In this document: positions 32,624 to 48,347 of the stretch, one piece after another
Layout of the letters: each line of letters begins with the position of its first letter
How positions within the stretch are numbered: the stretch's first letter is position 1
Source: Roseinatronobacter monicus
GTDB lineage: Bacteria; Pseudomonadota; Alphaproteobacteria; Rhodobacterales; Rhodobacteraceae
Length of the DNA: 64,000 nt
Direction of reading: 5' to 3'
Assembly (NCBI RefSeq): GCF_006716865.1
Contig: NZ_VFPT01000005.1
Coordinates: 62,001 to 126,000, forward strand
Notes under the pieces: model-generated
What the model was told of the DNA's origin: nothing
The model's input: the letters and a program-made list of their open reading frames with translations, nothing else
Databases searched by the model: none
Made by a program: the position numbers and the translations under genes

Positions 32624-33021
32624 TAGATCAGGGGAAACCCGCGCGCATGGGCGCGGGTTGAGACTATTCCAAGGACAGCGCGGGGGATCGACGGGCCTAT
32701 GGCCCGCTCACCGCCCGCGCTGACACTCTTCCTTTTTCTTGTCCGCCCAACAGACCTGATCGAGCCGGTCAAGGGGCAAGCGCCGCGCGAGGCGCGTCGT
32801 CAGATCACCCACCCGTGTCCTCGCTTCGCTGCGGGCCGCGCCAGTGGGCGATCTGACCCCGTGACAGTCTCGCTCAGGCCCGTGGGTCGGGCTTCGCCCT
32901 CTCCCACTCTGTTCCGCCGAATACATGCGTATCCGGCAAACAGAGTGGCCGAGGCGCAGCCCATTGGCGGGAATAGGGACCAACCCCAGCCGCCCACATC
33001 GCTTGAAGAGGACGAAAGACT
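32624..33021 (+). promoter_or_regulatory. Leader module A (~400 bp, repeated four times)
   Basis: First of four near-identical plus-strand modules. Internal structure: a 5' hairpin ACCCGCGC/GCGCGGGT, then CAGCGCGGG pairing with CCCGCGCTG around an inner GGGCC/GGCCC hairpin. A 14-bp stem follows (32799-32812 with 32844-32857), then a GTGGG...TTCG...CCCAC hairpin, and finally an AGAGGA ribosome site directly before the DUF3768 ATG. No gene-like frame is consistent between copies. Confidence 0.85.
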
Positions 33022-33393
33022 ATGGACAACGCCCAAACCTTAATCAACCCGCGCGCCGCGATCATCGCAAAGCAGAATGATGCCTTTCGCGCCATGATGC
33101 CCCTTGGCGGTCACAAGACCTATCTGGGCCAGACCGTCACAACCCGCGCAGTCGCAGCCAAGGGCTTTGACTTCCTGTTGAACGCTCAAATCGCTGTCGC
33201 GGCCTTCAACGACTTCAATGAAGAAAACGACCCCTACGGCGATCATACCTTTGGCGTGGTCACAGTGAGCGGGGAACGCTTGTTCTGGAAGATCGACCTT
33301 TACGATCTGAACTTTGAATACGGCTCCGACCAACCAGAAAACCCAGAGCGCACTCGCCGCGTTCTGACCATCATGCTGCCCTCTGATTACTGA
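33022..33393 (+). CDS. DUF3768 protein
   Basis: A 123-residue protein that matches DUF3768 along its length: NDAFRAMMPLGG, FDFLLNAQIAVAAFNDFNEE, DPYGDHTFGVVTVSGERLFWKIDLYD and ERTRRVLTIMLPSDY. The family is almost confined to alphaproteobacterial plasmids and integrative elements; function unknown. Expressed from leader module A. A 10-bp hairpin (33401-33426) follows the stop. Confidence 0.9.
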   Translation: MDNAQTLINPRAAIIAKQNDAFRAMMPLGGHKTYLGQTVTTRAVAAKGFDFLLNAQIAVAAFNDFNEENDPYGDHTFGVVTVSGERLFWKIDLYDLNFEYGSDQPENPERTRRVLTIMLPSDY

Positions 33394-33400
33394 ACAGGGC

Positions 33401-33426
33401 GGGCGTGGCCCCATCAGGCCGCGCCC
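33401..33426 (+). terminator. Intercistronic hairpin after DUF3768
   Basis: GGGCGTGGCC and GGCCGCGCCC pair fully (one G-T) around a six-base loop. No T run follows, so it may be a processing or protective stem rather than a terminator. Confidence 0.45.
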
Positions 33427-33464
33427 AACCTTCGCACAACCTGCGCAAGAAAGGAGGTGAATCC

Positions 33465-33578
33465 ATGAGTGAGCAAATTCTGCAATCGCGCCGCCAAGAG
33501 GCTTGGGCGCTGATTAGGAAGGGCGGTTTCTCGGCAAAGATAGGCCGCGCCTTCCTTATCCAACACGGCGCTGTGTAG
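33465..33578 (+). CDS. Small protein, 37 residues
   Basis: Encodes MSEQILQSRRQEAWALIRKG followed by 17 residues ending HGAV. The AAGGAGGTGA upstream is a near-perfect ribosome site with ideal spacing, which is the main support. Amphipathic and basic; no family. It lies between DUF3768 and the ParB-like gene in the same direction. Confidence 0.65.
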   Translation: MSEQILQSRRQEAWALIRKGGFSAKIGRAFLIQHGAV

Positions 33579-33660
33579 CGCCCCAGTCTTGCCCCGATGC
33601 ACACGGGGCAAAGCACCAATACCCCGGAAAATCCAAAATCGCAAATGAGGAATTGACGCC

Positions 33661-35532
33661 ATGACCAAGCATCAGACAATCACCGCCGACACCATCCAGC
33701 GCTTCGTGCTGGCCGATCTTTACCTGTCAGACCTGAACCCCCGCCAAGTGGCCGACCCGCAGGAGATCGACCATCTCGCAGATAGTATCGAGGTTTGCGG
33801 CCTGATCCAGAACCTTGCGGGATTGATGGACGCAAAAGGTAAAATCGCCATTGTTGCAGGCGGTCGCCGCCTTCGTGCAATCACCCGCGCGATGGAGCGC
33901 AATCCTGAGTTTCTGACCACGCGCCCCGAACTGGCCACTATCCCCGTGCAGCTTGCCCCCGACGAGCAGACCGCGCGCGCTTGGGCCAGCGCAGAGAACA
34001 CCGCGCGCGCCGATCTGCATCCCGCCGATGAAATCCGCGCCTATGGCCGGATGCGGCAGGCCGGGAGTGATGTCACCGCCATTGCACGGGTTTTTGCCGC
34101 GACCGAAGCCCATGTTTACCGCCGCCTTGCACTGGCCGATCTGCCCGCGCCTGTCCTCGACGCTTTGCGCAAGGGCGAAATCAGCCTCTCGATTGCCAGC
34201 GCCTTCACCGTTGCCAATGACGAGGCGCGCGCTCTGGAAATTCTCGACGGGGTGCGCGGGAATGACAATTACACCGCGCAGCGCGTCAAAACCCTCTTGC
34301 AGCCCGAAGCCGTGGCCATGACCGACCGCCGCGCCCGCTTCGTCACCCTTGACGCCTATCAGGCCGCAGGCGGCACCATCACCCGCGATCTCTTTGCAGA
34401 CAGCGCTTTCTTGCAAGATGCCGAATTGCTCGACCGCCTGTTTGAGCAAAAGCTGCAAGACGCCGCCGAGGGCTTGAAGGCCGAAGGCTGGAAATGGGTG
34501 GAAACTGTTCCCGCGCCCTACGTGTCTTATGAGGTCACGCAGCGCATGAAGCGCCTCTACCGCGTCGAGGGGGAATTGACCGAAGATCAGGCCGCGCGCG
34601 TTGATGAACTGGCCGAGATTGCCGAGCAAGACGACCTCACAGACGCGCAGCGCGACGAGTGGGCCGCCCTCGAAGACATCTTGGCGGGCGATTACACCAA
34701 CACGCAGCGCCAGCACAGCGGCCTCTATGTCTATGTCGCCCATGACGGGGAGTTGCGCACGGATTGCGCCTATATCCGGCCCGAAGACTTCGCGGACGCA
34801 ATCGCGGCCGAGGTTCTGACCGGCCACGCAGCCAGCAGCGCCGCCGCCACCGCCGAGCAGACCGCCGCCCCGAAATCCCCCTATTCGGCCTCGCTTGTGC
34901 AAGACATGCACGCCGCCCGCCTTCATGCCCTGCAATCGGCCTTGCTCGACAAGCCCGAATTGTTGCTCGATCTCTTGGGCTTCATGTTCTCTGGCAAGGG
35001 TGGTGTCTATGAAACCCTGTTCGATCTGACCCCACGCGAGGCCAATATCACGCCAAGCAAGACCGAGGGGCTGGACGCCGACACCCGCCTTGCCAGCGAT
35101 GAAGACCGCCCGTCCTGGATGAAGGCAGACGAGCGCGTTGACGCCTTCACCAGATTTCAGGGGGAAGGCAAGAAAGCCCGCAATGCAGCCCTGTCACTTG
35201 GCCTCACGCGCACACTTTCATATCCCCACCGCGAAACCGCGTTCTTCGATCATATCGAGGCCGCAGCCAGCGCCGATCTGCGCAAGGTCTGGTCACCTAC
35301 CGCCGAAGGGTTTTTCTCACGGGTCAGCGCAGATTATCTTGACGCGCTCATGCTTGATCTGACCCAATGCGACCCGCAAGGCTCTGGCTTCAAGGCATGG
35401 GCCAAGCAGAAGAAGGCCCAAAAAGCCGAAGCACTGGAACGCCTGTTCACCTGCCCGGACTATCAGGCGGTCTGGCAGATCGACGCCGATCAGCGCGCGC
35501 GCATCAAAGCATGGCGTCCCGATTGCTTCTGA
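33661..35532 (+). CDS. ParB/Spo0J-like protein of the plasmid leading-region type
   Basis: A 623-residue protein. The N-terminal ParB/sulfiredoxin-like domain (~residues 16-110) has YLSDLNPRQV and AIVAGGRRLRAI. An HTH follows (~120-190, SDVTAIARVFAATEAHVYRRLAL). The long C-terminal part, with an Ala-rich linker near 395, is not a partition domain, and no parA is nearby. Such long ParB-like proteins occur in leading regions of conjugative plasmids beside ssb and anti-defence genes, so a role in establishment rather than segregation is more likely (inference). Confidence 0.85.
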   Translation: MTKHQTITADTIQRFVLADLYLSDLNPRQVADPQEIDHLADSIEVCGLIQNLAGLMDAKGKIAIVAGGRRLRAITRAMERNPEFLTTRPELATIPVQLAPDEQTARAWASAENTARADLHPADEIRAYGRMRQAGSDVTAIARVFAATEAHVYRRLALADLPAPVLDALRKGEISLSIASAFTVANDEARALEILDGVRGNDNYTAQRVKTLLQPEAVAMTDRRARFVTLDAYQAAGGTITRDLFADSAFLQDAELLDRLFEQKLQDAAEGLKAEGWKWVETVPAPYVSYEVTQRMKRLYRVEGELTEDQAARVDELAEIAEQDDLTDAQRDEWAALEDILAGDYTNTQRQHSGLYVYVAHDGELRTDCAYIRPEDFADAIAAEVLTGHAASSAAATAEQTAAPKSPYSASLVQDMHAARLHALQSALLDKPELLLDLLGFMFSGKGGVYETLFDLTPREANITPSKTEGLDADTRLASDEDRPSWMKADERVDAFTRFQGEGKKARNAALSLGLTRTLSYPHRETAFFDHIEAAASADLRKVWSPTAEGFFSRVSADYLDALMLDLTQCDPQGSGFKAWAKQKKAQKAEALERLFTCPDYQAVWQIDADQRARIKAWRPDCF

Positions 35533-35542
35533 TGCCCAAGCA

Positions 35543-35560
35543 GGGCGGCATACGCCGCCC
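35543..35560 (+). terminator. Hairpin after the ParB-like gene
   Basis: GGGCGGC, loop ATAC, GCCGCCC: a perfect 7-bp stem ten bases past the stop. No U tract. Confidence 0.45.
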
Positions 35561-35590
35561 GCTTATCCCCATCTCTCAGAGGTTGCCACC

Positions 35591-35827
35591 ATGCCCGACT
35601 TCACCGCCCACCGTCACCCCGCGCTCTCTGTCAGATGCCCCGAATGTGGAAAACCCGTAGGCGTCTGGTGCCGTGACCCCGCAACCGGCCAGTTGGTTGA
35701 CGATCTTCACCCCCCGCGCCAAGCCGCCGCCGATCTGGCCTTTCTCGCACAACATGGCCACCTTGCCAGCGTCGAGAACACGCCGCACGGCTGGCAGATC
35801 AATCCTCAAGGCCGCGCCCGCGATTGA
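35591..35827 (+). CDS. Small zinc-finger protein
   Basis: Seventy-eight residues with ALSVRCPECGKPVGVWCRDP near the N-terminus: CPxCGxxxGxxC followed by DDLHPPRQAAADLAF, like the short phage/plasmid zinc-finger family. Probably binds DNA or another protein. TTGCCACC precedes the ATG without a strong ribosome site. Followed by a terminator. Confidence 0.7.
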   Translation: MPDFTAHRHPALSVRCPECGKPVGVWCRDPATGQLVDDLHPPRQAAADLAFLAQHGHLASVENTPHGWQINPQGRARD

Positions 35828-35945
35828 CCCTCGACAGCCGCGCAGGGCTTCGCTAACATTACTGTATATTCTCCCTCGTGGTGTCGGGTGCAGTGCAGCC
35901 AACATTCAAGAGTTTCGTCTTGTTCCTTTTGCGATGGAACCACCT

Positions 35946-35973
35946 GCCCCCGCCTGTCGGGGGCATTTCTTTT
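35946..35973 (+). terminator. Rho-independent terminator
   Basis: GCCCCCG, loop CCTGT, CGGGGGC, then ATTTCTTTT. The same CCACCTGCCC...GTCGGGGGC cassette recurs at 46368 and 47209, so one terminator type has been copied in this block. Confidence 0.8.
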
Positions 35974-36082
35974 GAGGGAAGCCCTGACGATGTTGGGTGG
36001 AGTGGTGCCCTGATCCTCTCCTGGGGCTGCACCCCAAGAGAACATCAGGACTGGCGCTACCCGCGCAGGGCCGCTCGCGCGG

Positions 36083-36370
36083 TTACGGATTCTCTTCGTT
36101 CAGCCGCTTGAGCAGCAAGCTCGACGCACGAAACGCCACAACCTGTTTTGGCTCTACCGCCACCGCAGCACCTGTGCGCGGATTACGGCCTTGCCGCGCA
36201 CCGCGCAGCTTTGCGCTGAATGCGCCAAAGCCGCGAAACTCAACCCGATCACCACGCGCCAGCGTATCTGTGATCTCATTGAATACCGCATCTACCACCG
36301 AGATGATTTCGCGCTGCGTAAGATGGGGGTTTTCTTCCCAAAGCTTCGTTACCAATTCCGATCTGACCAT
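36083..36370 (-). CDS. ihfB: Integration host factor beta subunit, copy 2
   Basis: Ninety-five residues, almost the same as copy 1: [39 protein letters not shown] arm. It is the only minus-strand gene between 33 and 36.5 kb and lies 124 bases from IS1182. No alpha subunit is visible. Confidence 0.88.
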
Positions 36371-36494
36371 GCTCAACCTCAATCTTCGTCACCAAATCAA
36401 AAACAGCTTTGGCCACGCAGGACAAGGGGCTTGTCGTTGGGGCTGTCGCCTCAAGGCCCCCCCCGCAACTCAGCTTGAACGGCTGTTATGCGGA

Positions 36495-38183
36495 GAGGGT
36501 GTGTGAAAACTCGCCTCTTTTTGTGAATTGTGGTATGCTCTCTACATCTGAAGCGAGGGTATGTCATGGCGGGATTTATCGAAGGTTTGGACCGCCAGCA
36601 GACGATGTTGCTGCCTGAACATCTGGACGATTATGTTGATGAGAACAGCCCGGTCCGCGCCATTGATGCCTTTCTCGACATGCTTGATCTCGCGATGCTT
36701 GGCTTCACTGTGCAGCCATCGCCGACCGGTCGGCCAGGCTATCATCCTGGGCTGTTGCTGCGGATTTATCTCTACGGGTATTTGAACCAGATCCAGTCAT
36801 CACGGCGGCTGGAACGAGAATGCGGTCGTAACCTGGAACTCATTTGGCTGACCGGTCGGTTGAAGCCGGATTTCAAGACGATTGCTGATTTTCGTAAGGA
36901 TAACGGGCCTGCGATCCGCAAAACCTGCCAGCAATTTGTCGCCCTATGCCGCAACATGGGTTTGCTCGACGGCGATGTTGTTGCGATTGATGGCAGCCGC
37001 TTTAAAGCGCTGAACTCCAAGGCCAAGAATTACACGCGCGGCAAGCTGCGCCAGAAGCTCGATGAGATTGATAAAGCAATCGAGCGTTATCTGGGCGAGT
37101 TGGATCGTGCTGATGCGGTGTTTGAGCAGACGGGCACTGTGCTGCCAGAGGCCCGCATGGAACGCACCCTGAGAAAGCTGGAACATCTGAAAAAAGAGGC
37201 GGTCCGCTACCGATCAATTGAACAGCGCATGGATGAGACTGGTGAAAGCCAGGTCTCGCTCAGCGACCCTGACGCCAGATCAATGGCAACAACAGCGCGC
37301 ATGCCGCGCATTGTCGGCTACAATGTTCAGACCGCTGTCGAAGCCGATCACCATCTGATCGTCGCACATGAAGTCACCATGCTTGGGTTTGATCGGGACG
37401 CTTTATCGATGATGGCGGTAGCCGCGGGCGATGAAATGACGACAGATCAACTCACGGCAATCGCGGACAAAGGCTACTACAAGGGGGAGGAAATCGTCGT
37501 CAGCGAAGAGGCTGGCATCTCGGTTGTCGTTCCTAAACCCATGACATCAAATTCCGGTGCGCGCGGCCAGTTTGACAAGGCAGACTTCGCGTATGACGCC
37601 GCAAAGGATGTCTACATCTGCCCAGCGGGCGAGGATTTGATTTACAGATTTACCAGTCAACAAGACGACAAAGCCATCAGATCATACTGGTCGGGCGCAT
37701 GTGCTGATTGCGTCATCAAGGACAAATGCACGACCGGCAAGGAACGCCGCGTGCGCCGGTGGGAACACGAGGCTGTCCTTGAGCGCGTTCAGGCGCGGCT
37801 GGATGCCGACCCAGGCCAATTGGCTGTCCGAAGCATGACGGTAGAGCACCCCTACGGCACGATTAAATCATGGATGGGTGCCACGCATTTCAAAATGCGG
37901 ACCCTGAAAAAGGTGGCGACGGAAATGGCGCTGCATGTGCTGGCCTATAACATGACCCGTGTCATGAACATCATGGGCATTCCGGCGATGATCGCGGCGA
38001 TGAAGGCGTAAATGGCCTTGATTGCTCAAAATCCGCTCCCGAAAACACAGAAACCATCCTCAGATGCTCCCGCCGCCCTCGTGGCCCCCCGAGACGGACC
38101 AAATACTTCGCACGACTAAAAACACGCCCATACGGCGAGAACGACCGGTTTTTCCAAAAATAGTCGAGTTTTCACACACCCTC
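36495..38183 (+). mobile_element. IS1182-family element (1,689 bp)
   Basis: Perfect terminal repeats GAGGGTGTGTGAAAACTCG and a 4-bp duplication CGGA (36491-36494, 38184-38187). Inserted between ihfB copy 2 and the metallopeptidase-like gene; it does not disrupt a recognisable gene. Confidence 0.92.
36566..38011 (+). CDS. IS1182-family transposase
   Basis: A 481-residue protein: N-terminal DUF772 region (AIDAFLDMLDL...GRPGYHPGLLLRIYLYGY), FKTIADFRKDNGPAI, GDVVAIDGSRFKALNSKAKN (first Asp), a coiled middle, TAIADKGYYKGEEI (second Asp) and VEHPYGTIKSWMG (Glu). ATG 36566 chosen. Intact. Confidence 0.94.
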   Translation: MAGFIEGLDRQQTMLLPEHLDDYVDENSPVRAIDAFLDMLDLAMLGFTVQPSPTGRPGYHPGLLLRIYLYGYLNQIQSSRRLERECGRNLELIWLTGRLKPDFKTIADFRKDNGPAIRKTCQQFVALCRNMGLLDGDVVAIDGSRFKALNSKAKNYTRGKLRQKLDEIDKAIERYLGELDRADAVFEQTGTVLPEARMERTLRKLEHLKKEAVRYRSIEQRMDETGESQVSLSDPDARSMATTARMPRIVGYNVQTAVEADHHLIVAHEVTMLGFDRDALSMMAVAAGDEMTTDQLTAIADKGYYKGEEIVVSEEAGISVVVPKPMTSNSGARGQFDKADFAYDAAKDVYICPAGEDLIYRFTSQQDDKAIRSYWSGACADCVIKDKCTTGKERRVRRWEHEAVLERVQARLDADPGQLAVRSMTVEHPYGTIKSWMGATHFKMRTLKKVATEMALHVLAYNMTRVMNIMGIPAMIAAMKA

Positions 38184-38195
38184 CGGACCTTGCGG

Positions 38196-38909
38196 TCATT
38201 CGCGAAAGGAGTCACCTGCTCGAATTTCGCCCAACAACGAAACAACAGCTTCTGCCCCGCCGTGGTGGTCAAGCCAATCAATCACCTGACAGGCTGAAGC
38301 CGTATAAATCGCCTCCGCCTTGGTAGCGCCAAGGCGTCGGAATGTTCGCTGATCAGAAGGCGGTTGCGCCCAATCTCCGGTTTTGCAGCCCGAAACTACG
38401 CCAGCCTCAATGTCCAGATAGCGGGTATCGTGCGAGATATAGACGGCGAGGCCCTCGTCAAACCATGTTGGAACAGCTTGTGAGAAGAACCGCCGATTGC
38501 TGCCGACCCTTTCGTGCAATTCCGCATGCGCAAGCTCATGCGCCAAGATGGTTGGGGTTGCCCCGTCAGGGTATACGAATACGAACAGGTTCATGTAAGC
38601 CATTGCAAGCGGGCGCGGCAGGCTGCGCATTCCGCAATCACCCGACAGGCAAAGCAGCCAGACCGGATCTGACATGCGCTCTGGGTAGAAATCCAGAACC
38701 ATTCCTTCTGCCGTCGCAAGATCCTGCAACGCCGCGTCAATTTGTGCGTCAGTCGCCCGCTGATCGACATATATCTGCGGCGCAACCTGTCGAAACCCGG
38801 AACATGCCGGGAACAGATACGCCCTGACATGCGGTTCGGAATGCAGCAACCATGCCAGCGCAATGCTGAGCAATACGAAAACAAGTGCAATCAGGCGGCG
38901 CAGTGTCAT
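38196..38909 (-). CDS. Membrane-anchored gluzincin-like metallopeptidase
   Basis: About 237 residues: a signal anchor (LIALVFVLLSIALAWLL) and a body with HELAHAELHERVG, the HExxH zinc motif in the variant HELAH, at ~125-129. WFDEGLAVYIS ~29 residues later supplies the third ligand Glu, typical of gluzincins. Predicted periplasmic peptidase; substrate unknown. IS1182 lies 13 bases beyond the stop without damaging it. The 34-codon membrane gene ends 11 bases upstream. Confidence 0.72.
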   Translation of the reverse strand: MTLRRLIALVFVLLSIALAWLLHSEPHVRAYLFPACSGFRQVAPQIYVDQRATDAQIDAALQDLATAEGMVLDFYPERMSDPVWLLCLSGDCGMRSLPRPLAMAYMNLFVFVYPDGATPTILAHELAHAELHERVGSNRRFFSQAVPTWFDEGLAVYISHDTRYLDIEAGVVSGCKTGDWAQPPSDQRTFRRLGATKAEAIYTASACQVIDWLDHHGGAEAVVSLLGEIRAGDSFRE

Positions 38910-38919
38910 TGATGGCACA

Positions 38920-39024
38920 TCAGGTTTTGTCCTTCCGGCGTTGGTTTCTGCGCCAGATCAAAATCGGAATTCCGATGACCGACACGAAAAGCAAAACATC
39001 CACTGCAAAAGACAAAATTTTCAC
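38920..39024 (-). CDS. Small single-pass membrane peptide
   Basis: GTG start; 34 residues, KILSFAVDVLLFVSVIGIPI then LIWRRNQRRKDKT. One membrane helix followed by a basic tail. It precedes the metallopeptidase in the same direction and may be co-expressed. Support is the helix and position only. Confidence 0.45.
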   Translation of the reverse strand: MKILSFAVDVLLFVSVIGIPILIWRRNQRRKDKT

Positions 39025-39235
39025 ACGATAAGCCCGACAAGCACGGCAAGGGTTGATCCGCCTGTCAGATATAAGAACTTCAATCTGTTTTCTCAACGTT
39101 AAGCGCGGATGACCGGTGTGGGCCCTGCCTTGCGGCACTGCAGCATGCGAAACGCGGTCCGACCGGCAGTTGTGATGCGGACTAAAGGGTCATTCAAAGA
39201 CTTGCCGTGCCCGGTTCCATTGGTAAGGTTGCGAG

Positions 39236-39781
39236 ATGAGCGCACCTTATCGTCTGCCAGATGAGTTCGAGACAACCCGCTATCACCTTCGCCGCGTGAG
39301 GGAGGATGACGCACCGGTTATTTTTGACAGTTACGCCACCGATGTGGACGTCACACGCTTTCTTGGCTGGAAGCCTCATCGAAGCATCGCAGACACCTAT
39401 GAATTTCTCGAACTAGCAGCGGCTGAATGGGATTTGGGAAACGGTTTCCCCGTAGTCGTATTTGATCACGCAACCGGGGGCTTTATTGGAATGTTTCACC
39501 CTAAGGTAATGGGTCACAAGGTGAACTATGGTTACGTTTTGCAGAAATCAGCTTGGGGAGAAGGCTGCGCCACAGAAGTGATGCGCTGGCTTGTAAAGCA
39601 TGCCTTGGATCATCCTACGATTTACAGAGCGGAAGCCTTCTGTGACGTAGATCATCCAGCGTCGGCCAGGGTGATGGAGAAAGCAGGTATGGAGCGTGAG
39701 GGTATCCTGCGGCGCTACTTCAGGCACCCCAACATGTCTGAGGCGCCTCGCGATTGCATCATCTACTCGAAGGTCCGTTAA
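39236..39781 (+). CDS. GNAT acetyltransferase, RimJ/RimL type
   Basis: A 181-residue protein with the Acetyltransf_3 pattern: LRRVREDDAPVIFDSYATD, GGFIGMFHPK, YVLQKSAWGEGCATEVMRWL (acetyl-CoA site) and SARVMEKAGMEREGILRRYF. Transfers acetyl to a protein N-terminus or small amine; substrate unknown. Complete. The spacer before it (39115-39190) is a decayed dispersed module. A GCCCCGC/GCGGGGC hairpin (39805-39820) follows the stop; 39821-40039 has no gene. Confidence 0.85.
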   Translation: MSAPYRLPDEFETTRYHLRRVREDDAPVIFDSYATDVDVTRFLGWKPHRSIADTYEFLELAAAEWDLGNGFPVVVFDHATGGFIGMFHPKVMGHKVNYGYVLQKSAWGEGCATEVMRWLVKHALDHPTIYRAEAFCDVDHPASARVMEKAGMEREGILRRYFRHPNMSEAPRDCIIYSKVR

Positions 39782-40039: not shown

Positions 40040-40441
40040 TAGATCAGGGGAAACCCGCGCGCGATTGCGCGGGTTGAGACTATTCCAAGGACAGCGCGGG
40101 GGATCGACGGGCCTATGGCCCGCTCACCGCCCGCGCTGACGATCTTTCTTTTCTTCTTGTCCGCCCAACAGACCTGAGCGAGCCGGTCAAGGGGCAAGCG
40201 CCGCGCGGGGCGCGTCGTCAGATCACCCACCCGTGTCCTCGACCTGCGGTCTGCGGGCCGCGCCAGTGGGTGGTCTGACCCCGTGACAGTCTCGCTCAGG
40301 CCCGTGGGTCGGGCTTCGCCCTCTCCCACTCTGTTCCGCCGAATACATGCGTATCCGGCAACAGATTGGCCGAGGCGCAGCCCATCGGCGGGAACAGGGA
40401 CAAACCCCAACCGCACACATCGCTTGAGAGGATGAAAGATC
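40040..40441 (+). promoter_or_regulatory. Leader module B (~400 bp)
   Basis: Second copy. The first hairpin is ACCCGCGC/GCGCGGGT with a different loop from module A. The long stem GTCAGATCACCCAC with GTGGGTGGTCTGAC is fully paired with one G-T. Ends with GAGAGGATGAAAGATC directly before the ATG at 40442. Confidence 0.85.
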
Positions 40442-40696
40442 ATGACCGTGAAACCTTGGCAATCGTGGCACCATTTCGATTCAGCCGAAGATGCCATTGA
40501 ATACCGCCGCGAACACGGCACAGGTGGCTGGATTTTCGAGATCAGCGACAATGGTGAAGCCGTGCTGTTCCCATGGCAGAGCACGCCCAAAGATATCTTC
40601 AATTCCGTGTTCGTGCATGGGCGCATAGGCCGTTTCATCGGCACAGATGAACGCAAAACATGGTCATATGACATGGCCGAAAAACTTGGCCTGTGA
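40442..40696 (+). CDS. Hypothetical protein, 84 residues
   Basis: Expressed from leader module B. Acidic with many aromatic residues (KPWQSWHHFDSAEDAIEYRR, GGWIFEISDNGEAVLFPWQS). No family recognised. Ten bases separate it from the next gene, so the two form a small operon. Confidence 0.7.
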   Translation: MTVKPWQSWHHFDSAEDAIEYRREHGTGGWIFEISDNGEAVLFPWQSTPKDIFNSVFVHGRIGRFIGTDERKTWSYDMAEKLGL

Positions 40697-40706
40697 GGGG
40701 GAAATC

Positions 40707-41366: not shown

Positions 41367-41573
41367 ATGAGCGACATCGACATGAACCAAGCCCTCGCCA
41401 AAAAGCTCGACGCCGAAATCGTAAGTCTTCACGCGACAACGATGAAGCTTCATGCCGAGACGATGAACCTGCGCACCCAGAAGATCTGGTATCCAGTCTT
41501 CGTCGCAGGAACACTGCTCGCAGGCGGCGCAGGCGCTCTCGCCCTCATCTTGAGGCTCACGGGCGTCATCTGA
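41367..41573 (+). CDS. Small membrane protein, 68 residues
   Basis: A charged N-terminal helix (residues ~5-40) and one C-terminal membrane helix (VFVAGTLLAGGAGALALIL). CAAGGAGATCACA precedes the ATG and decides the start. No family recognised; could be a holin-like or surface-exclusion-type peptide, without evidence for either. Confidence 0.65.
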   Translation: MSDIDMNQALAKKLDAEIVSLHATTMKLHAETMNLRTQKIWYPVFVAGTLLAGGAGALALILRLTGVI

Positions 41574-41611
41574 ACGATGCAACGCGGCTCTTCGGGGCCG
41601 CTTTTTGCATG

Positions 41612-41881
41612 TTATCGCGTGAGCCTGACCACCTGCCGACCCGCCGCATCGCGGGCAATCTCACCCTCATACAGATAATCAACAGAGCGCTTCAGGCGCA
41701 CAAAATCATCATTCGCCAATTCGCGCCACCGCTCCCCTTCCGGCCAGCGGTTCAGCGCCGCGCTGCGCTCCGCGCGCTCCAAGCGCATCACAGCATCTTC
41801 CATCACCCGCACTTCGCGATCAACAATCGCGCGCGCCGATCCAATCAGTTCCGCCAGCACCGCGTTCAGTTCTCTCGACAT
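41612..41881 (-). CDS. Hypothetical protein, 89 residues
   Basis: Mostly helical and charged (VMEDAVMRLERAERSAALNR, DFVRLKRSVDYLYEGEIARD). No family recognised. It converges on the small membrane gene with a 38-base gap. Codon use fits the local genes. Confidence 0.55.
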   Translation of the reverse strand: MSRELNAVLAELIGSARAIVDREVRVMEDAVMRLERAERSAALNRWPEGERWRELANDDFVRLKRSVDYLYEGEIARDAAGRQVVRLTR

Positions 41882-42125
41882 CGCCTTGCCCCCGATTTCT
41901 TTCTTTTGCTCTCAGCGATTCTGAATCATTGCGAGTCGCGAAGCAATCGTTTCGACACGAATAATGACATCCTGCGACTGGCCTGACCTATCCCCTTAAA
42001 AATTGGGACAGCTTACATGTCGCGCCGATCCGTCAAGGCCAAGCCCTGCGGGGCGCTGCGCGCGCCTTGACAGACCGGCTTTCCCGACATGTCGCAACAT
42101 CTCCATTTTCAAAAGGAGATAGGTC

Positions 42126-42284
42126 ATGAAATACATTCGCAAACGTGCCACCAAACTTCGCATCGCTGCCGCAAAGTTGCGCCGCACCATCCGCCGACAG
42201 CTTCAGGCCATCGACATCAGCATCAGCATCGAGATCAACCTGATCTCCCTCAAGATCACATTCACCGCAAAGCGCCGAGACTGA
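42126..42284 (+). CDS. Small basic protein, 52 residues
   Basis: MKYIRKRATKLRIAAAKLRR then an Ile/Ser-rich strand region ending TFTAKRRD. AAAAGGAGATAGGTC directly before ATG is a strong ribosome site. Very basic, so a nucleic-acid or membrane binder is likely. Upstream lies a GTCAAGGC...GCCTTGACAG inverted repeat (42031-42075), like the structured leader at 41.2 kb. Confidence 0.6.
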   Translation: MKYIRKRATKLRIAAAKLRRTIRRQLQAIDISISIEINLISLKITFTAKRRD

Positions 42285-42437
42285 CCGGCGCTACCCGCGC
42301 AGATGGAGCAAACTGCAAACATCCGATGAAACCCATGGCTGAATCCTGTGTAAACGGTTAAAGACGTGCCAGTCTCATAACTCTGTCGAAGATCATAAAC
42401 TGAGCTGAACCAATTAATTCCACAACGGAAAGCAAAA

Positions 42438-43238
42438 TTGCGTATCCAGTCTTTGACCAAATTCCTGCTGGCACCAAAATGGCAACTTGAAACGCCGCGC
42501 GCCCTCAAGGAGCCGCTGTTTTTATGGCTTACTGCTGGTCAGGGCCGTTTGACCATTGCCAGCATGACGCGCGGCGTGCAACCGCACAACGCCATCTATA
42601 TCCCCGCTGGTACCTTACACAGCTTCCATAACATGACTCGGGTTCAGGGTACCGCGATATACCTTGATCAGGACCATAGTCGTCTCGACCTGCCACAAGC
42701 GCCAGTACATCTGCGTTTACTCGATGTGAACAGCCAGTTTGAAGTGACGACTCTAATTGATTCGATGCGCCGCGAACTGGATGGCGACCGCCCCAAAGCC
42801 TTAGAAGCCGCACGTCTACAGCTTGGGCTGCTGAGCATCTGGCTGCATCGGCGTAGTCTTGATAATCGTGATGGAGCCCATACCCCACCCGACCTGAAAG
42901 CCAATGACCGGCTGACTGCACGCTTCACCTCATTGCTGGAAAGCAATTTCGGCCTTGCGTGGAATGTCAGCGATTATGCCGCGACTCTTGGCGTTACCCC
43001 CACACATCTGACCCGCGCCTGTCGCGCCAGTTGCGGGCGGACCGCACTGGAATTGATACAACGTCGCCGCCTATATGAAGCTTGCAATCTATTGCTGGAA
43101 ACAAAAATCCCGGTGCAAGATATCTCGTACAGACTTGGCTTTTCAACACCAGGCTATTTTTCGCGCAGCTTTTTACAGACACTCGGCGCACCTCCCTCAA
43201 CCTTCCGCAAAAACAGAGGCCGGGTGACGACATATTGA
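42438..43238 (+). CDS. AraC-family regulator with cupin-like sensor
   Basis: A 266-residue protein: N-terminal AraC_binding cupin (PHNAIYIPAGTLHSFHN around 50-65) and C-terminal double HTH (~165-260: NVSDYAATLGVTPTHLTRAC, VQDISYRLGFSTPGYFSRSF). An effector-controlled activator; target not evident. Its codon use and the ordinary promoter region differ from the surrounding plasmid array. Confidence 0.85.
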   Translation: MRIQSLTKFLLAPKWQLETPRALKEPLFLWLTAGQGRLTIASMTRGVQPHNAIYIPAGTLHSFHNMTRVQGTAIYLDQDHSRLDLPQAPVHLRLLDVNSQFEVTTLIDSMRRELDGDRPKALEAARLQLGLLSIWLHRRSLDNRDGAHTPPDLKANDRLTARFTSLLESNFGLAWNVSDYAATLGVTPTHLTRACRASCGRTALELIQRRRLYEACNLLLETKIPVQDISYRLGFSTPGYFSRSFLQTLGAPPSTFRKNRGRVTTY

Positions 43239-43993
43239 TTGGTGCGTTATACGCGGCGCGGATCGTGCCGAGGAAGAGCGGACAAGACACCTACCTGCTT
43301 GATGCGCCATACAAGACTGGAGAGTGTCGTGTAGAGGTGACGCAGCCTAAAACTAGCTTCAACGCCCAGTGCAGAATGCCCTAGCTGACTCACCTCTGTC
43401 TATCGTCGGCACTCGGCATTTTGGGAGCACGCGCAGAGTCCGCGCTACGCGCGCTTAGGCGATCCCGCATGCGGGCCAGACCATTACCCGCCCGTCTTGG
43501 CCAAACGGTGCACGACCTCTATCGCAGCAGATCAAGGCAAGCCGCGCGCGCGTGCGGCTCTTGCGCGACGGTGGCTATCGCCAAGTATCCTCGACCCCGT
43601 AGGCTTCGAGCATATCTCGTGATACACACCCCATCGTTGCCCGCGCAGATGCAAGTGCGCTCCATGGCACGGGCTTCGGGCTGGATCAGGGCCGGCCCAG
43701 CATCATCGCAACACGAAGGCCAGTATCACCGATCAGCCAAAGCGGGTTTCAAGATGCCATGCCAGTGACAGGGAGAGTGACGCTTGACGGTAGGCGCCTG
43801 ATGCCCTGAGATCGCCCCCTCTCTGTTTCTGGAAGATGCAATCTGGGCTGGCGCGGGCGGGCTGTTCCCGAAGCAAGCTTCGGCAAGCAGAAATACGGTT
43901 TCCCCCTTCGGCGGACCCTCCGCATTTCGGCTTGCAGCCCGCCCTGTTGCGCCAGCCCCTTTCGTTTGCATCGAAACAGAAAGGAACGATCCC
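43239..43993 (+). other. Intergenic; long foldable leader
   Basis: No supported gene in ~600 bases. At 43845-43958 a long inverted repeat (GGGCTGGCGCGGGCGGGCTG against CAGCCCGCCC and GCGCCAGCCC, with a 4-base bulge) encloses CCGAAGC/GCTTCGG and other hairpins. It ends 35 bases before the next start. Different sequence from leader modules A-D but the same position and foldability. Confidence 0.55.
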
Positions 43994-44191
43994 ATGTCAA
44001 ATTACTACCGCGTCACCACCCCTGTCACCGGCACCGATGGCAAAACCCGCTTCCGCCAGATCGGTGTGGCCTTCCCTCAGCGCGATGACGCCAAGTCCTT
44101 CATGAAGATCCAGCTCGAAGCCCTTCCGCTCAATGGCGAACTGGTGCTATTCACCCCGCGTAACGGCGAGGATGACGACGTTACCGAATGA
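43994..44191 (+). CDS. Hypothetical protein, 65 residues
   Basis: NYYRVTTPVTGTDGKTRFRQ, IGVAFPQRDDAKSFMKIQLE, then an acidic tail (NGEDDDVTE). It looks like a small beta-alpha protein. GAAAGGAAC before ATG. Also found in spirit on related plasmids as an uncharacterised gene, but no named family is claimed. Confidence 0.65.
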   Translation: MSNYYRVTTPVTGTDGKTRFRQIGVAFPQRDDAKSFMKIQLEALPLNGELVLFTPRNGEDDDVTE

Positions 44192-44212
44192 GGCCCGTTC
44201 CTCCCGGGCCTC

Positions 44213-44238
44213 GGGGTGGCGGCAATAGCCGCCGCCCC
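44213..44238 (+). terminator. Hairpin after the 65-residue gene
   Basis: GGGGTGGCGGC, loop AATA, GCCGCCGCCCC: an 11-bp stem with one G-T pair, followed by ATCCCC without a T run. Confidence 0.45.
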
Positions 44239-44278
44239 ATCCCCTGTTCCAGGGGAGCCGCACCTAAACGCGCGACAA

Positions 44279-44678
44279 TAGATCAGGGGAAACCCGCGCG
44301 CATGGACGCGGGTTGAGGTGATCTGAAGGACAGCGCGGGGGATCGACGGGCCTGTGGCCCGCTCACCGCCCGCGCTGACGATCTTGCTGTTCTTCTTGTC
44401 CGCCCAACAGACCTGATCGAGCCGGTCAAGGGGCAAGCGCCGCGCGGGGCGCGTCGTCAGCCCACCCACCCGTGTCCTCGACCTGCGGTCTGCGGGCCGC
44501 GCCAGTGGGTGTTCTGACCCCGTGACAGTCTCGCTCAGGCCCGTGGGTCGGGCTTCGCCCTCTCCCACTCTGTTCCGCCGAATACATGCGTATCCGGCAA
44601 CAGATTGGCCGAGGCGCAGCCCATCGGCGGGAACAGGGACAAACCCCAACCGCCCATCGCTCAAGAGGACGAAACACC
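44279..44678 (+). promoter_or_regulatory. Leader module C (~400 bp)
   Basis: Third copy, with local changes: GGTGATCTGAAGG in place of ACTATTCCAAGG, and CAGCCCACCCAC in place of CAGATCACCCAC. These weaken two pairs of the long stem. Ends AAGAGGACGAAACACC directly before the ATG at 44679. Confidence 0.85.
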
Positions 44679-45434
44679 ATGACCAGCACAGCCGAACTGA
44701 CCCGCCACCCCAAACTGACCTTTACCGCCATTGATGATCTGACCACAGAAGCCCGTTTCAGCATGGACGGATGGGGCAGCGATATCGTGTGCAAATACTG
44801 GAAAGTTGAGAACCACGGCAGAAGTGACCCTTGGCGCTATGAGTTGGAAACCATCGAAGGTAAAGGCGGGGTGTTCTGTCACCCAAGTGAAGATGGATGC
44901 CGCCTGGCTATCGTGCGCCACCTGATCTATTTCGGGTTGATCGACATTCCCCAAGACAATCAGCATCTGGACGCGCGCAACACAGCTATCGCTGTCACGA
45001 CCCAAGCCGCGCGCGAGCAGATGGCAGGCCCGCGCATTGGCGATTTCATCGAGATGACCGACGGCAGCTTGCAGCGCTTTTGCAACAAGACCAAACACGG
45101 GATGCAGACAACCGAAGGCGGCAGCTTTCACGTCACTTCAACAGGCACGGCCAGCTATTCAGGCGGATTGAACCCGCCGCAGATGATGGAGCGCATCGAG
45201 GACACAGGGGCCACCAAGCGCGGGCGGTTCTGGTTCTTCTCGCACGCGATCGCAGGCGCAGGGCGTGGCGTTGATGTCTTCCTTCCTTGCCGCGTCTATC
45301 GCCTCACTGAACTGAGCATGACCGAAGAAGAGGCGCGCAACCATCCAGCAGCGCGCGGCATGGCCGAGTTTTGGGGCGAGAACCACCCCGATCACTTGCG
45401 CCAGATTGCGAAGTTGATGGAAGGCCGACTGTAA
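44679..45434 (+). CDS. Hypothetical protein, 251 residues
   Basis: Expressed from leader C. Two apparent parts: an N-terminal half with FSMDGWGSDIVCKYWKVENH and a C-terminal half with RIGDFIEMTDGSLQRFCNKT and FHVTSTGTASYSGGLNPPQM. No family recognised with certainty. Soluble, acidic and full of plasmid-style codons. Followed by a strong hairpin. Confidence 0.7.
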   Translation: MTSTAELTRHPKLTFTAIDDLTTEARFSMDGWGSDIVCKYWKVENHGRSDPWRYELETIEGKGGVFCHPSEDGCRLAIVRHLIYFGLIDIPQDNQHLDARNTAIAVTTQAAREQMAGPRIGDFIEMTDGSLQRFCNKTKHGMQTTEGGSFHVTSTGTASYSGGLNPPQMMERIEDTGATKRGRFWFFSHAIAGAGRGVDVFLPCRVYRLTELSMTEEEARNHPAARGMAEFWGENHPDHLRQIAKLMEGRL

Positions 45435-45441
45435 GCGCTTT

Positions 45442-45467
45442 GCATCCCCGCGAAATTGCGGGGATGC
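45442..45467 (+). terminator. 10-bp hairpin between plasmid genes
   Basis: GCATCCCCGC, loop GAAATT, GCGGGGATGC: a perfect 10-bp stem seven bases after the stop, without a T run. The next gene starts 29 bases further on. Confidence 0.5.
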
Positions 45468-45495
45468 CCACACCTTGAGAAAAAAGGCTGCAGCC

Positions 45496-45855
45496 ATGAA
45501 AGACGCATTCTGCCGCATCGAAGGGCGTGAGATCACAGATCACGAGGCCCGCGCCATTGTCAAAGCCATCGCGAACTTGCGCGCTGTCTTCGCACCCTTT
45601 GTCGCGGCCAGCCCCGATACAATTCCCAACTATGCCAGCGTGCCCTACAGGCCCAAGGGCAGCACAAAATCCTACCAGATCACCCCCTGCCCGAAGCGCG
45701 GCGCTGGTTTCTACATTGTCGCCATCACCCCGCATGATAAAAATCATTACGGAATGCCGCTTTACCAGCCCGAGACTGTCACGGTCTGGCTCGATATCGC
45801 GCCGCTCTACGTGCCGACGCGAAAGGAAGACTGTCATGATCTGGAAATCTGCTAA
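45496..45855 (+). CDS. Hypothetical protein, 119 residues
   Basis: IEGREITDHEARAIVKAIAN at the start, GSTKSYQITPCPKRGAGFYI in the middle, WLDIAPLYVPTRKEDCHDLE at the end. No family. The final 20 bases overlap the next gene, so they are translationally coupled. Confidence 0.65.
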   Translation: MKDAFCRIEGREITDHEARAIVKAIANLRAVFAPFVAASPDTIPNYASVPYRPKGSTKSYQITPCPKRGAGFYIVAITPHDKNHYGMPLYQPETVTVWLDIAPLYVPTRKEDCHDLEIC

Positions 45856-46336
45856 ACTCCTGATCGCATTTTACCGCGACAAGAACCAGCGCAAGCGGCG
45901 CATCCCTTATCTATGGGGGCCAAAGGGGGCCGAGGCAGGGATCACGGATCGCGAAAAATCCGATCAGGAAACATTCGTTCTGATAGAGGACGCCAAAGGC
46001 GCGCGCGATATCCAGATCAAATTCCGGCCCGAGCATATCGTCATCCGCCGCGATGCCGGTGACTATTGGCACGGGCTGGTGATCACAGATCACAGCATCA
46101 AAGCCCGCGTTGCAGGGCGCATCATTGAAATCGGGCATGATGGTGCTGTGAAATCCATCAGCGCCGATGACACCGAGAGCGACAAAACCATCGTCGAGGC
46201 CGATGGCACCGTCTTCAAATGGACGGATCTGGCCGAGATCGTCATCTCAGGCGACGGGGCCGAGGTCTCGCACCGTCAGCCCGACCAGTTCACAGCAATC
46301 ACACCGCAAGGCACTATCACCAAAGCCTTGCGCTGA
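45836..46336 (+). CDS. Hypothetical protein, 166 residues
   Basis: GAAAGGAAGACTGTC sets the ATG at 45836, inside the previous gene. A basic N-terminus (KLLIAFYRDKNQRKRRIPYL) then a beta-rich region with repeated short strands (KARVAGRIIEIGHDGAVKSI, VEADGTVFKWTDLAEIVISG). No family recognised. Its last 44 bases and the terminator behind it are duplicated downstream of NYN copy 2. Confidence 0.65.
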   Translation: MIWKSAKLLIAFYRDKNQRKRRIPYLWGPKGAEAGITDREKSDQETFVLIEDAKGARDIQIKFRPEHIVIRRDAGDYWHGLVITDHSIKARVAGRIIEIGHDGAVKSISADDTESDKTIVEADGTVFKWTDLAEIVISGDGAEVSHRQPDQFTAITPQGTITKALR

Positions 46337-46391
46337 ACCCCTTTCCTCTAGCGATGGAAAACCACCTGCCCACGCCAGTCGGGGGCTTTTT
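46293..46391 (+). repeat. Direct repeat, left copy, with terminator
   Basis: About 98 bases, including the end of the 166-residue gene and a terminator (GCCCACG/CGGGGGC at 46368-46386, then TTTT). Repeated with few changes at 47134-47236; NYN copy 2 lies between. Confidence 0.8.
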
Positions 46392-46539
46392 ATGTGCAGA
46401 TCAGGGCGGGCGCTGCCCGCGCAGGGGGCTTGGGTGAGCGCAGACGCGACTTAGGGTGAAAGACCTCTTGATTAATTGGCAAAAGAGGTCGATCTAAACG
46501 TCTCAACAGCATGCCACACCAAAACATTCAAGGATTACC

Positions 46540-47115
46540 ATGTTTTATAAAGACGAACGCCTCGCGTTGTTTATTGACGGCGCAAACCTTTTCGCAGCAG
46601 GGAAAGCGCTAGGCTTCGACATTGACTACAGGCTCCTGCGTCAGGAGTTCGCACGTCGCGGCAAACTGCTGCGCGCTTTCTATTACACCGCGTTGCTGGA
46701 AAACGACGATCATCAACCAATGCGTCCATTGACAGATTGGCTGCAATACAATGGATATTCCTTGGTGACCAAGACCGCAAAAGAATACACGGATTCAATG
46801 GGCCGGCGTAAGGTAAAGGGCAACATGGATATCGAGCTGGCTGTGGATGCAATGGAACTTGCGCCACACCTGGATCATGCTGTCTTATTCTCAGGCGACG
46901 GGGATTTCCGTCCGCTGGTCGAAAGCTTGCAGCGTCAGGGTGTTCGTGTGTCGGTGGTGTCCACCATCCGCAGCCAGCCGCCCATAATTGCAGATGAATT
47001 GCGCCGCCAGGTGGATAATTTCATCGAACTTGACGAGTTGCGTGACGTTATTGGCCGCCCTCCGCGTGAGCCTCGCAGTGATGCGCCGCGCGAAGAAGAG
47101 CAGATGGAGAGCTGA
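46540..47115 (+). CDS. NYN/LabA-type RNase, copy 2
   Basis: A 191-residue NYN domain protein with all acidic motifs: FIDGAN (Asp13), KGNMDIELAVDAM (Asp97, Asp103) and FSGDGDF (Asp120, Asp122). Predicted metal-dependent RNase, in contrast to copy 1 at 13296. Its C-terminal tail (SDAPREEEQMES) is acidic. It lies as a cassette between ~98-base direct repeats, consistent with insertion or duplication by recombination. Confidence 0.85.
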   Translation: MFYKDERLALFIDGANLFAAGKALGFDIDYRLLRQEFARRGKLLRAFYYTALLENDDHQPMRPLTDWLQYNGYSLVTKTAKEYTDSMGRRKVKGNMDIELAVDAMELAPHLDHAVLFSGDGDFRPLVESLQRQGVRVSVVSTIRSQPPIIADELRRQVDNFIELDELRDVIGRPPREPRSDAPREEEQMES

Positions 47116-47133
47116 TCGAACTGGCCGTGTTGT

Positions 47134-47236
47134 CAGCAATCACACCGCAAGGCACCATCACCAAAGCCTTGCGCTGAACCCCTTTCCTCTAGCGATGGAA
47201 AACCACCTGCCCCTCGCCAGTCGGGGGGCTCTTTTT
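47134..47236 (+). repeat. Direct repeat, right copy, with terminator
   Basis: Repeats 46293-46391: the orphan gene tail CAGCAATCACACCGCAAGGC, the CTCTAGCGATGGAAAACCAC phrase and a terminator (GCCCCTCG/CGGGGGGC then TCTTTTT, 47209-47236). Here the coding tail is out of context, so this is the acquired copy. Confidence 0.8.
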
Positions 47237-47245
47237 GTCTGGCAC

Positions 47246-47291
47246 TGTAGCTTATAGTTGACAGATTGCGGGGTGATAACTATAAGCTACA
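47246..47291 (+). promoter_or_regulatory. Promoter-operator of the toxin-antitoxin pair
   Basis: TGTAGCTTATAGTT (47246-47259) and its exact reverse complement AACTATAAGCTACA (47278-47291) flank an 18-base spacer. TTGACA (47258-47263) and TATAAG (47281-47286) have 17-base spacing and are each covered by one arm. The start point would lie at about the toxin ATG (47293), giving a leaderless mRNA; no ribosome site is visible. Confidence 0.8.
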
Positions 47292-47292
47292 C

Positions 47293-47595
47293 ATGGCGAA
47301 TGAAATCCGCATCACTCCTACGTTTTCCGAGTGGCTTGACGGTCTCAAAGACCACAAAGCGGCCGCCTTGGTATCGGCCAGAATCGAACGCCTCGGCTAT
47401 GGCTTGCTCGGAGATGTGAAGGTGTTTGACGGGATCGGAGAGCTGCGGATCGACTACGGTCCTGGCTATCGGGTCTATTTCTGCCGCCGTGGCGGAACGC
47501 TCTACATCTTGTTGTGCGGTGGGGCCAAGAGAACGCAGGATCGAGACATCAAACGCGCCAAGAAAATGGCAAAGGAGATTGGTTATGACCATTGA
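47293..47595 (+). CDS. RelE/ParE-superfamily toxin (HigB-like killer)
   Basis: A 100-residue protein: ITPTFSEWLDGLKDHKAAAL, DVKVFDGIGELRIDYGPGYR, VYFCRRGGTLYILLCGGAKR. Matches the addiction-module killer subgroup, ribosome-dependent mRNA interferases. The toxin gene comes first, as in higBA. Overlaps the antitoxin by 11 bases. Confidence 0.88.
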   Translation: MANEIRITPTFSEWLDGLKDHKAAALVSARIERLGYGLLGDVKVFDGIGELRIDYGPGYRVYFCRRGGTLYILLCGGAKRTQDRDIKRAKKMAKEIGYDH

Positions 47596-47893
47596 AACAG
47601 TGCCCTTTGACGCAGCCAAGTATCTTGCGGAGCCGGAGGCGCAAGCCGTTTTCTTGCGCGATGCGCTGGAAACAGGTGATGCTGGATATATTGCCCATGC
47701 GCTTGGCGTGATTGTGCGCGCGCGCGGCATGTCGCAGGTTGCCCGCGATGCAGGCTTAAGCCGCGAGGCGCTTTACAGGGCGCTCTCTCCCACAGGCAAC
47801 CCCAGGCTTTCGACCCTCTTGGGCGTCACCAAGGCGCTCAATATCCGGCTTGAGGCTTCAGCACTTCCGACAACACCTAACGGTGCGCAGTAA
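47585..47893 (+). CDS. HTH antitoxin, addiction-module antidote
   Basis: A 102-residue protein: PFDAAKYLAEPEAQAVFLRD and a HTH with SQVARDAGLSREALYRALSP and NPRLSTLLGVTKALNIRLEA. The antidote type that pairs with HigB-like killers; binds the toxin and the 14-bp palindrome to repress the operon. A normal AAGGAGATTGGTT ribosome site precedes it, unlike the toxin. Confidence 0.88.
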   Translation: MTIETVPFDAAKYLAEPEAQAVFLRDALETGDAGYIAHALGVIVRARGMSQVARDAGLSREALYRALSPTGNPRLSTLLGVTKALNIRLEASALPTTPNGAQ

Positions 47894-47951
47894 GGGCGGG
47901 AGTTTGGCTACCTCCGCTTGCGTTTCTGTCTCTGTATATCCTGACAGATCA

Positions 47952-48347
47952 TAGATGAAACCCGCGCGCATGGACGCGGGTTGAGACTATTCCAAGGACA
48001 GCACGGGGGGTCGACGGGCCTGTGGCCCGCTCACCGCCCGCGCTGACGATCTTTCTTTTCTTCTTGTCCGCCCAACAGACCTGATCGAGCCGGTCAAGGG
48101 GCAAGCGCCGCGCAGGCGCGTCGTCAGATCACCCACCCGTGTCCTCGACCTGCGGTCTGCGGGCCGCGCCAGTGGGTGGTCTGACCCCGTGACAGTCTCA
48201 CTCAGGCCCGTGGGTCGGGCTTCGCCCTCTCCCACTCTGTTCCGCCGAATACATGCGTATCCGGCAAATCAGATTGGCCGAGGCGCAGCCCATCGGCGCA
48301 AACAGGGACAAACCCCAACCGCCCATCGCTTGAGAGGATGAAAGACT
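47952..48347 (+). promoter_or_regulatory. Leader module D (~400 bp)
   Basis: Fourth copy. Similar to B and C. Begins TAGATGAAACCCG (the GATCAGGGG of the others is shortened). Ends GAGAGGATGAAAGACT directly before the ATG at 48348. Confidence 0.85.

Follow-up and report, generated by a model that had tools for sequence, protein, structure and literature searches.

Frpo1 and Frpo2 of the F plasmid are repeated elements (90 % identical over 548 bp) directly before leading-region genes, and Frpo is said, going by the title of a 1997 paper of Masai and Arai, to serve both as a promoter and for priming. The available portions of an F study report canonical boxes in Frpo and, for the reporters tested, an early rise in transconjugants that is lost when Frpo1/2 are deleted (PMC9849209). 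Structured single-strand initiation (ssi) sites, among them ssi2/ssi3 of ColIb-P9, are described in leading regions and small plasmids. In excerpts of another study, sso1 of ICEBs1 appears as a single-strand start common to a conjugative element and rolling-circle plasmids (PMC4595007). The experimentally described single-stranded promoters found in the literature, as far as the available parts of it extend, are those of enterobacterial plasmids, and the search of Samuel et al., in the sections available, started from five known Frpo/ssi sequences plus candidates (PMC11541004). Here we describe a family of structured modules of about 400 bp found in a 64,000-nucleotide (nt) stretch of Roseinatronobacter monicus, positions 62001-126000 of contig C5 of its genome. 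This whole stretch is called the window below.

The modules are probably single-strand initiation modules of the leading regions of conjugative plasmids, similar in kind to Frpo and ssi and apparently without sequence kinship to them. This reading draws on a covarying structure, on position and direction, on coupling to genes, on a fold tuned to the transferred strand and on a core hairpin shared with other elements. As with Frpo1 and Frpo2, module copies stand directly before leading-region genes, and of the two strands it is the transferred one that has the better fold. Unlike Frpo, which is one long imperfect hairpin, the module is multi-branched, and no conserved counterpart of the canonical boxes of Frpo was found in it. 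No module was found in 5,426 E. coli genomes at an E-value of 0.01; these hold only the 37-nt top of one hairpin, in three small plasmid records. In F, the Frpo elements read towards traM and the tra genes, which we take to be the side of the origin of transfer (oriT). The F leading region contains ssb, ParB-like, methylase, antirestriction and DUF932 genes, all on the strand reading towards traM, and four of these families (DUF932, ParB-like, ssb and antirestriction) are common to it and to the neighbourhoods of the modules. The modules can also be likened, by the partial descriptions available, to ssi2/ssi3 and other ssi sites and to sso1 of ICEBs1, which the same descriptions set apart as a Firmicutes element concerned with second-strand priming rather than gene expression (PMC4595007).

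Single-stranded promoters and ssi sites are already known as a kind; what appears to be new is the present module family, together with its architecture and the hairpin that it shares with other elements. In the openly licensed full texts of PubMed Central, no description of Frpo in Alphaproteobacteria or of a single-stranded DNA (ssDNA) promoter in Rhodobacter was found. Among the matches listed there for the leading region in Rhodobacterales or Paracoccus the module was undescribed, and nothing on the hairpin was seen among those listed for the letters of its motif.

Module copies and their fold

The window contains four full copies of the module and the remnant of a fifth:

32624..33021, plus strand: module copy 1, directly upstream of the DUF3768 gene, which is followed by the ParB-like gene
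40040..40441, plus strand: module copy 2, upstream of the 84-aa orphan gene
44279..44678, plus strand: module copy 3, upstream of the 251-aa orphan gene
47952..48347, plus strand: module copy 4, upstream of the gene that breaks off at an IS6-type element
15428..15495, plus strand: fifth-module remnant, 5' part (first ~66 positions only), on the same strand as the full copies

A preliminary description of the window had called the four plus-strand copies near-identical, each ending with an AGAGGA-like site before a gene. They are 91.5-95.9 % identical over ~400 bp, and all four end at such a site followed by ATG. Their flanks are unrelated on the 5' and the 3' side. That description had also seen no conserved reading frame; many alignment gaps are not multiples of three, which speaks against one, although no formal coding test was made. 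Nine near-full copies were found in the whole genome, on the plasmid-like contigs C5 (five), C6 (three) and C2 (one). Since C5 and C6 share a 2.9-kb block containing a module and the 251-aa gene (window 43487-46395 and L018:14303-17213, 99.4 % identical), the copies within this genome are not independent. The window gave no Rfam match at the gathering score. Four candidate Rfam matches in ten loci (E-values 0.34-1.9) were at chance level and were rejected.

The module family, ~375 positions long, is recurrent in Rhodobacterales plasmids. When PLSDB was searched, 45 records matched, short matches included (Paracoccus 16, Phaeobacter 8, and others), and one module-bearing Jiella (Hyphomicrobiales) was among the plasmids opened. 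Matches were observed in 28 of 295 genomes in a scan at the level of the taxonomic family, in 102 of 390 in an order-level scan with a Paracoccus module as query (many by the short hairpin-top motif only), and in 7 of 385 in a class-level scan, R. monicus included. The fetched loci gave 84 matches above the length and score limits, of which 67 were distinct and 61 remained after removal of near-duplicates. The GTGTCCTCG core is present in 39 of these 61 sequences; two groups of 13 and 7 differ in their hairpin tops, and 2 sequences were unclassified.

For the analysis of structure, we selected 34 core-type modules (alignment A1). RNAalifold predicted 69 pairs on A1, 35 of them showing both-side changes that preserve the pairing. 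We used a consensus of 94 pairs, restricted to Watson-Crick pairs and the same on both strands. On A1 it pairs 92.6 % of the cells, with both-side changes in 46 pairs and 329 cells and a covariation of 0.279, related sequences being counted more than once in these covariation counts. Five measures were compared with 500 shuffles, and no shuffle equalled the consensus on even one of them. Slid versions of the consensus paired only 38-43 %, a comparison in which the consensus is favoured because it was derived from the same sequences. The covariation proposed as a check in the preliminary description is thus very strong on this alignment, and the long-range stem given there as 14 bp is real, namely helix 8 with 18 pairs, 11 of them with both-side changes.

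On the sense strand, the module begins at its 5' end with hairpins 1 and 2, followed by a pyrimidine tract, by a domain closed by TCCGCC/GGCGGA with hairpins A, A2 and B, and by the ribosome site. In copy 2 these parts are as follows:

40052..40075: hairpin 1 (helix 18; 6 of 9 pairs with both-side changes in the family)
40092..40138: hairpin 2 (helices 15-17)
40142..40158: unpaired tract, pyrimidine-rich on the plus strand and purine-rich on the presumed transferred strand
40160..40392: domain with hairpins A, A2 and B inside, closed by helix 1 (TCCGCC with GGCGG)
40172..40301: hairpin A, with the long-range stem (helix 8)
40231..40265, plus strand: portable hairpin-top motif CCGTGTCCTCG-N-CTGCGGGCCGC(G/A)CCA, at the top of hairpin A
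40304..40329: hairpin A2 (helices 6-7)
40337..40372: hairpin B, with a conserved loop and a covarying stem

Position, direction and strand

Fourteen module-bearing named plasmids were opened, and the nine with a relaxase gene inside the fetched stretch were scored (L014, L015, L064, L065, L066, L069, L113, L114 and L116). In these nine, a mobC/virD1-like or small gene precedes the relaxase, which was confirmed as PF03432 in L014, L064, L065, L114 and L116 and taken from the annotation in the other four. The unscored plasmids have no annotated relaxase in the stretch (L067, L068, L117 and L118) or a MobF relaxase with oriT not placed (L115). In the nine scored plasmids, each of the 20 full or partial modules is situated on the side away from the relaxase and is directed towards it, with a distance between them of about 3.6 to 23 kb; the split module of L116, with its two halves, was counted as one. 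According to the PLSDB match list, these nine records hold no module places beyond the fetched stretches. In the R. monicus genome itself, the three modules on contig C6 also point to the relaxase.

The available sections of Samuel et al. place the relaxase typically in the lagging region (PMC11541004). Because it would then enter last, we take the modules to sit in the leading region and the transferred strand to be the template of the genes, the direction of transfer itself being read from the position of the relaxase. The leading-region placement suggested earlier holds in this way for the related plasmids; on the window's own contig, it depends on a direction borrowed from these relatives. 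PF02534 genes are present on contigs C2, C3 and C6. In locus L016 on C5, a scan of ten reading frames found no mobilisation function, the 689-aa frame being a recombinase.

When both strands were folded with DNA parameters, the transferred strand was the more stable in all 61 modules, with a mean difference of -15.1 compared to -6.0 for shuffles. This asymmetry reached z ≤ -2.2 against the modules' own dinucleotide shuffles in 13 of the 15 modules tested, including the four window copies (-3.5, -2.7, -3.5 and -2.2), and Frpo2/Frpo1, the positive control in the same run, gave -2.2/-3.4. A second run (30 shuffles) gave z-scores of -1.9 to -7.8 (DNA) and -0.3 to -3.7 (RNA) for nine modules, -2.7/-3.6 (DNA) and -2.0/-5.1 (RNA) for Frpo2/Frpo1, and -0.3 to +1.1 (DNA) and +0.9 to +2.2 (RNA) for three controls, two cobalamin riboswitches and RNase P of R. 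monicus. The presumed transferred strand of the four window copies was also more stable than its shuffles (z -5.0 to -7.8). The better fold on the sense strand that would mark a structured mRNA leader was not observed. Two further measures were tried as strand evidence and rejected: G-T versus A-C cells (244:79 on the transferred-strand fold of the 61 sequences, 123:83 in the 39 with the core and 83:69 on the strand-neutral consensus of 34), and one-by-one mismatches, which lean the same way but do so in shuffles too.

Promoters were also searched for. The preliminary description had held that normal double-strand promoters in front of the genes would argue against its proposal; a scan of two of the four window copies found no sigma-70-like promoter. 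A family-wide hexamer scan (15-19 nt spacing) was also applied to Frpo, where the best hit had 8 of 12 matches and Frpo was not singled out.

The hairpin top in other elements

The motif CCGTGTCCTCG-N-CTGCGGGCCGC(A/G)CCA, usually within a GTCAAGG...CCTTGAC stem, also occurs alone in unrelated plasmids; its sharing with other elements had no place in the preliminary description. Of 299 genomes from across the phylum, 5 contain it, R. monicus included, and the reversed control pattern gave none among the matches listed. In IMG/VR, a strict pattern found 13 stretches and a looser one 65, many by chance; 22 of the 65 were accepted as genuine, having an outer inverted repeat of at least 7 and a CRCC end. 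ssDNA-phage markers are present in 11 of these 22. Seven are inovirus-like by their Zot (L124, L125, L126, L132, L169 and L186 by Pfam, L174 by similarity to L124), five of which also have G2P-type replication proteins (none seen in L169 and L186). Four are microvirus-like with REP_ORF2-G2P (L167 and L195 by Pfam, L159 and L171 by 91-95 % identity to the L167 protein). Two annotated Microviridae, Rhizobium phage RHph_Y67 and Eel River basin pequenovirus, carry the motif between genes. When INPHARED was searched with two hairpin queries (E-value 0.1), only these two and RHph_N39 were found, the last being outside the count of 14 elements below. The Rep_1 rolling-circle plasmid pKp_SB617_3 carries the motif as well.

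In inoviruses, microviruses and rolling-circle plasmids, the strand of the Zot or replication gene is the virion or displaced strand. The module-sense motif is opposite to the strand of that gene in 14 of 14 ssDNA elements, so that their single strand carries the transferred-strand form of the hairpin, in one orientation, as would be expected of sso and ssi sites. When close relatives are grouped, about nine lineages remain, for which equal odds would give 2 x (1/2)^9, about 0.004. Among the DNA matches between different phage lineages (E-value 1e-10), 22 of 24 are this hairpin (49-57 bp, 87.5-100 % identical). In theta-type plasmids the orientation is mixed. It is conceivable, and we put it forward tentatively, that one portable single-strand start signal (CCGTGTCCTCG-N-CTGCGGGCCGCRCCA, with a conserved host factor) serves three kinds of element with a single-stranded stage, namely plasmids that move by conjugation, plasmids that replicate by rolling circle, and unrelated phages with ssDNA genomes (inoviruses and microviruses), and that alphaproteobacterial plasmids enlarged it into a module that acts as a gene switch on arrival.

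Some further carriers of the hairpin were seen. The 4.2-kb Paracoccus plasmid L029 has two inverted copies close together (123-332), like paired single-strand initiation sites. Hairpin plasmids of 2,953 bp or near, including L028, occur in Pseudomonas, Klebsiella, Salmonella, Serratia, Citrobacter, Providencia and E. coli. A hairpin-flank version close to GTGCCGTCAAGGCGCGCAGGGCC is shared by L120, L122, L123, L127-L130, L163, L176, L134, L135 and L139, and in L120 the hairpin with this flank adjoins a ParB_N gene.

Downstream genes and competing explanations

An annotated start codon lies within -15 to +20 nt of the module end in 20 of 24 modules. Two of the remaining four have an ATG there, with the annotated start 25 or 28 nt further on, and two have no annotated start. 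The genes behind the window copies are unrelated, as had been described:

33022..33393, plus strand: DUF3768 gene (Pfam, 3.8e-28)
33661..35532, plus strand: ParB-like gene, 623 aa (its matches to ParB_N and HTH_ParB fall slightly short of the Pfam cut-off)
40442..40696, plus strand: 84-aa orphan gene, no Pfam or NCBIfam match at an E-value of 0.01
44679..45434, plus strand: 251-aa orphan gene, no Pfam or NCBIfam match at an E-value of 0.01
48348..48599, plus strand: 83-aa reading frame, truncated at the IS6-type element
48638-49330: IS6-type transposase (DDE_Tnp_IS240, 2.6e-37)

A 184-aa version of the truncated frame, sharing its first 69 residues, stands behind another C5 module (L016:15771-16325, minus strand). 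In the other plasmids, ArdC-like genes follow modules in L064, L066 and L114 (ArdcN and MPTase-PolyVal by Pfam) and, by annotation, in L065, L068 and L116. It is the recipient, not the donor, that requires ArdC, according to the available parts of PMC7213743. Modules also precede ParB-like genes, a DUF3768 or DUF1419 gene with ParB after it, a DUF3560 gene accompanied by a methyltransferase, DUF932 genes, and genes of hypothetical proteins that stand before DUF4942. The ParB-like gene had been proposed as a typical companion, and the DUF3768/DUF1419-ParB arrangement of the window was indeed found in 6 of the 14 plasmids opened. The zincin gene further on in L069 is short, with recombinase genes before it. 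Plasmid-borne genes for single-stranded DNA-binding proteins share the module regions, as in F (L113:28484-28828 and L114:7482-7814). In L116, a 1.8-kb insert with an annotated IS110 transposase (20228-22027) splits one module.

From these features we infer promoter activity, the beginning of RNA synthesis at the folded strand, the polymerase responsible, the timing and priming. The transferred strand would enter the recipient and each module would fold into its set of hairpins, at which a host polymerase, most likely RNA polymerase, would begin RNA synthesis. The RNA would read towards oriT into the adjacent gene, so that anti-restriction and establishment genes could be expressed ahead of the second strand, and the module RNA would probably also be a primer for second-strand synthesis.

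Alternatively, the modules could be complementary-strand origins only, their closeness to genes being incidental. The core hairpin is found in ssDNA phages and a rolling-circle plasmid, which need a complementary-strand start, and sso1 of ICEBs1, in the excerpts available, was identified through its similarity to the sso of a plasmid and is important if the element is to be acquired stably (PMC4595007). We nevertheless regard this as unlikely, as most modules end at an annotated start codon, several copies per plasmid precede different genes, and the conserved region continues past the hairpins to the start codon. Sense orientation, strong structure and an end at the ribosome site would also suit structured mRNA leaders (a riboregulator or RNA-stability element) made from a double-strand promoter. 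This is improbable in view of the mRNA strand, which folds less well, unlike the three RNA controls, and of the 5' flank, which is unconserved in the window copies, with no sigma-70-like promoter in the two scanned. In addition, ssDNA phages carry the core hairpin in antisense to their genes for Zot or replication, and no Rfam family was matched in the window or in the ten loci. Lastly, the multiple copies, the one gene or operon per repeat and the arrays common to C5 and C6 recall repeats of a recombination or mobility type, such as cassette sites or a miniature element, by which genes of the leading region are shuffled. With their fixed orientation, start-codon coupling and covarying structure, and their place on one side of the relaxase only in the nine scored plasmids, such an origin is very improbable.

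Several observations count against the modules being single-strand initiation modules. Contig C5 has no PF03432 relaxase (other relaxase families were not sought), which is why its transfer direction is inferred from relatives, and one of its five copies (142328-142719) is in the reverse direction. The sub-families of 13 and 7 among the 61 sequences are without the hairpin-top motif. As to the strand, shuffles also favour the transferred one in 58 of 61 cases, by less, so composition explains part of the asymmetry. There is little asymmetry in L065 (z -1.3) and L038 (z -0.1), and several copies show it weakly under RNA parameters (z -0.3 to -3.7). The G-T and A-C cells are near-even on the transferred strand of the 34 core modules (83:69), so that the strand signal rests on whole-sequence folding. 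Isolated motif copies next to virC/ParA-type genes point away from the relaxase at L113:35316, L116:23475 and C6:118809-118839 (all on the minus strand), that at L068:30478 (minus strand), near a ParA/virC-type gene, is opposite to the modules, and L031 and L029 have one copy each way. The family-wide hexamer scan, in which Frpo itself has at most 8 of 12 matches, found no conserved canonical paired -35/-10. The single-stranded promoter of the preliminary description is partly supported, by covariation, leading-region position and direction, the transferred-strand fold, the lack of a sigma-70-like promoter (two copies) and the ParB companion.

If the modules are single-strand initiation modules, they would suggest that gene expression from incoming single strands is not limited to enterobacterial plasmids. 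The modules would then mark leading regions in plasmids without such annotation, and the orphan genes behind them would be predicted to have roles in early establishment. Through the hairpin common to ssDNA phages, the identity of the host enzyme that would read folded single strands outside enterobacteria becomes directly testable.

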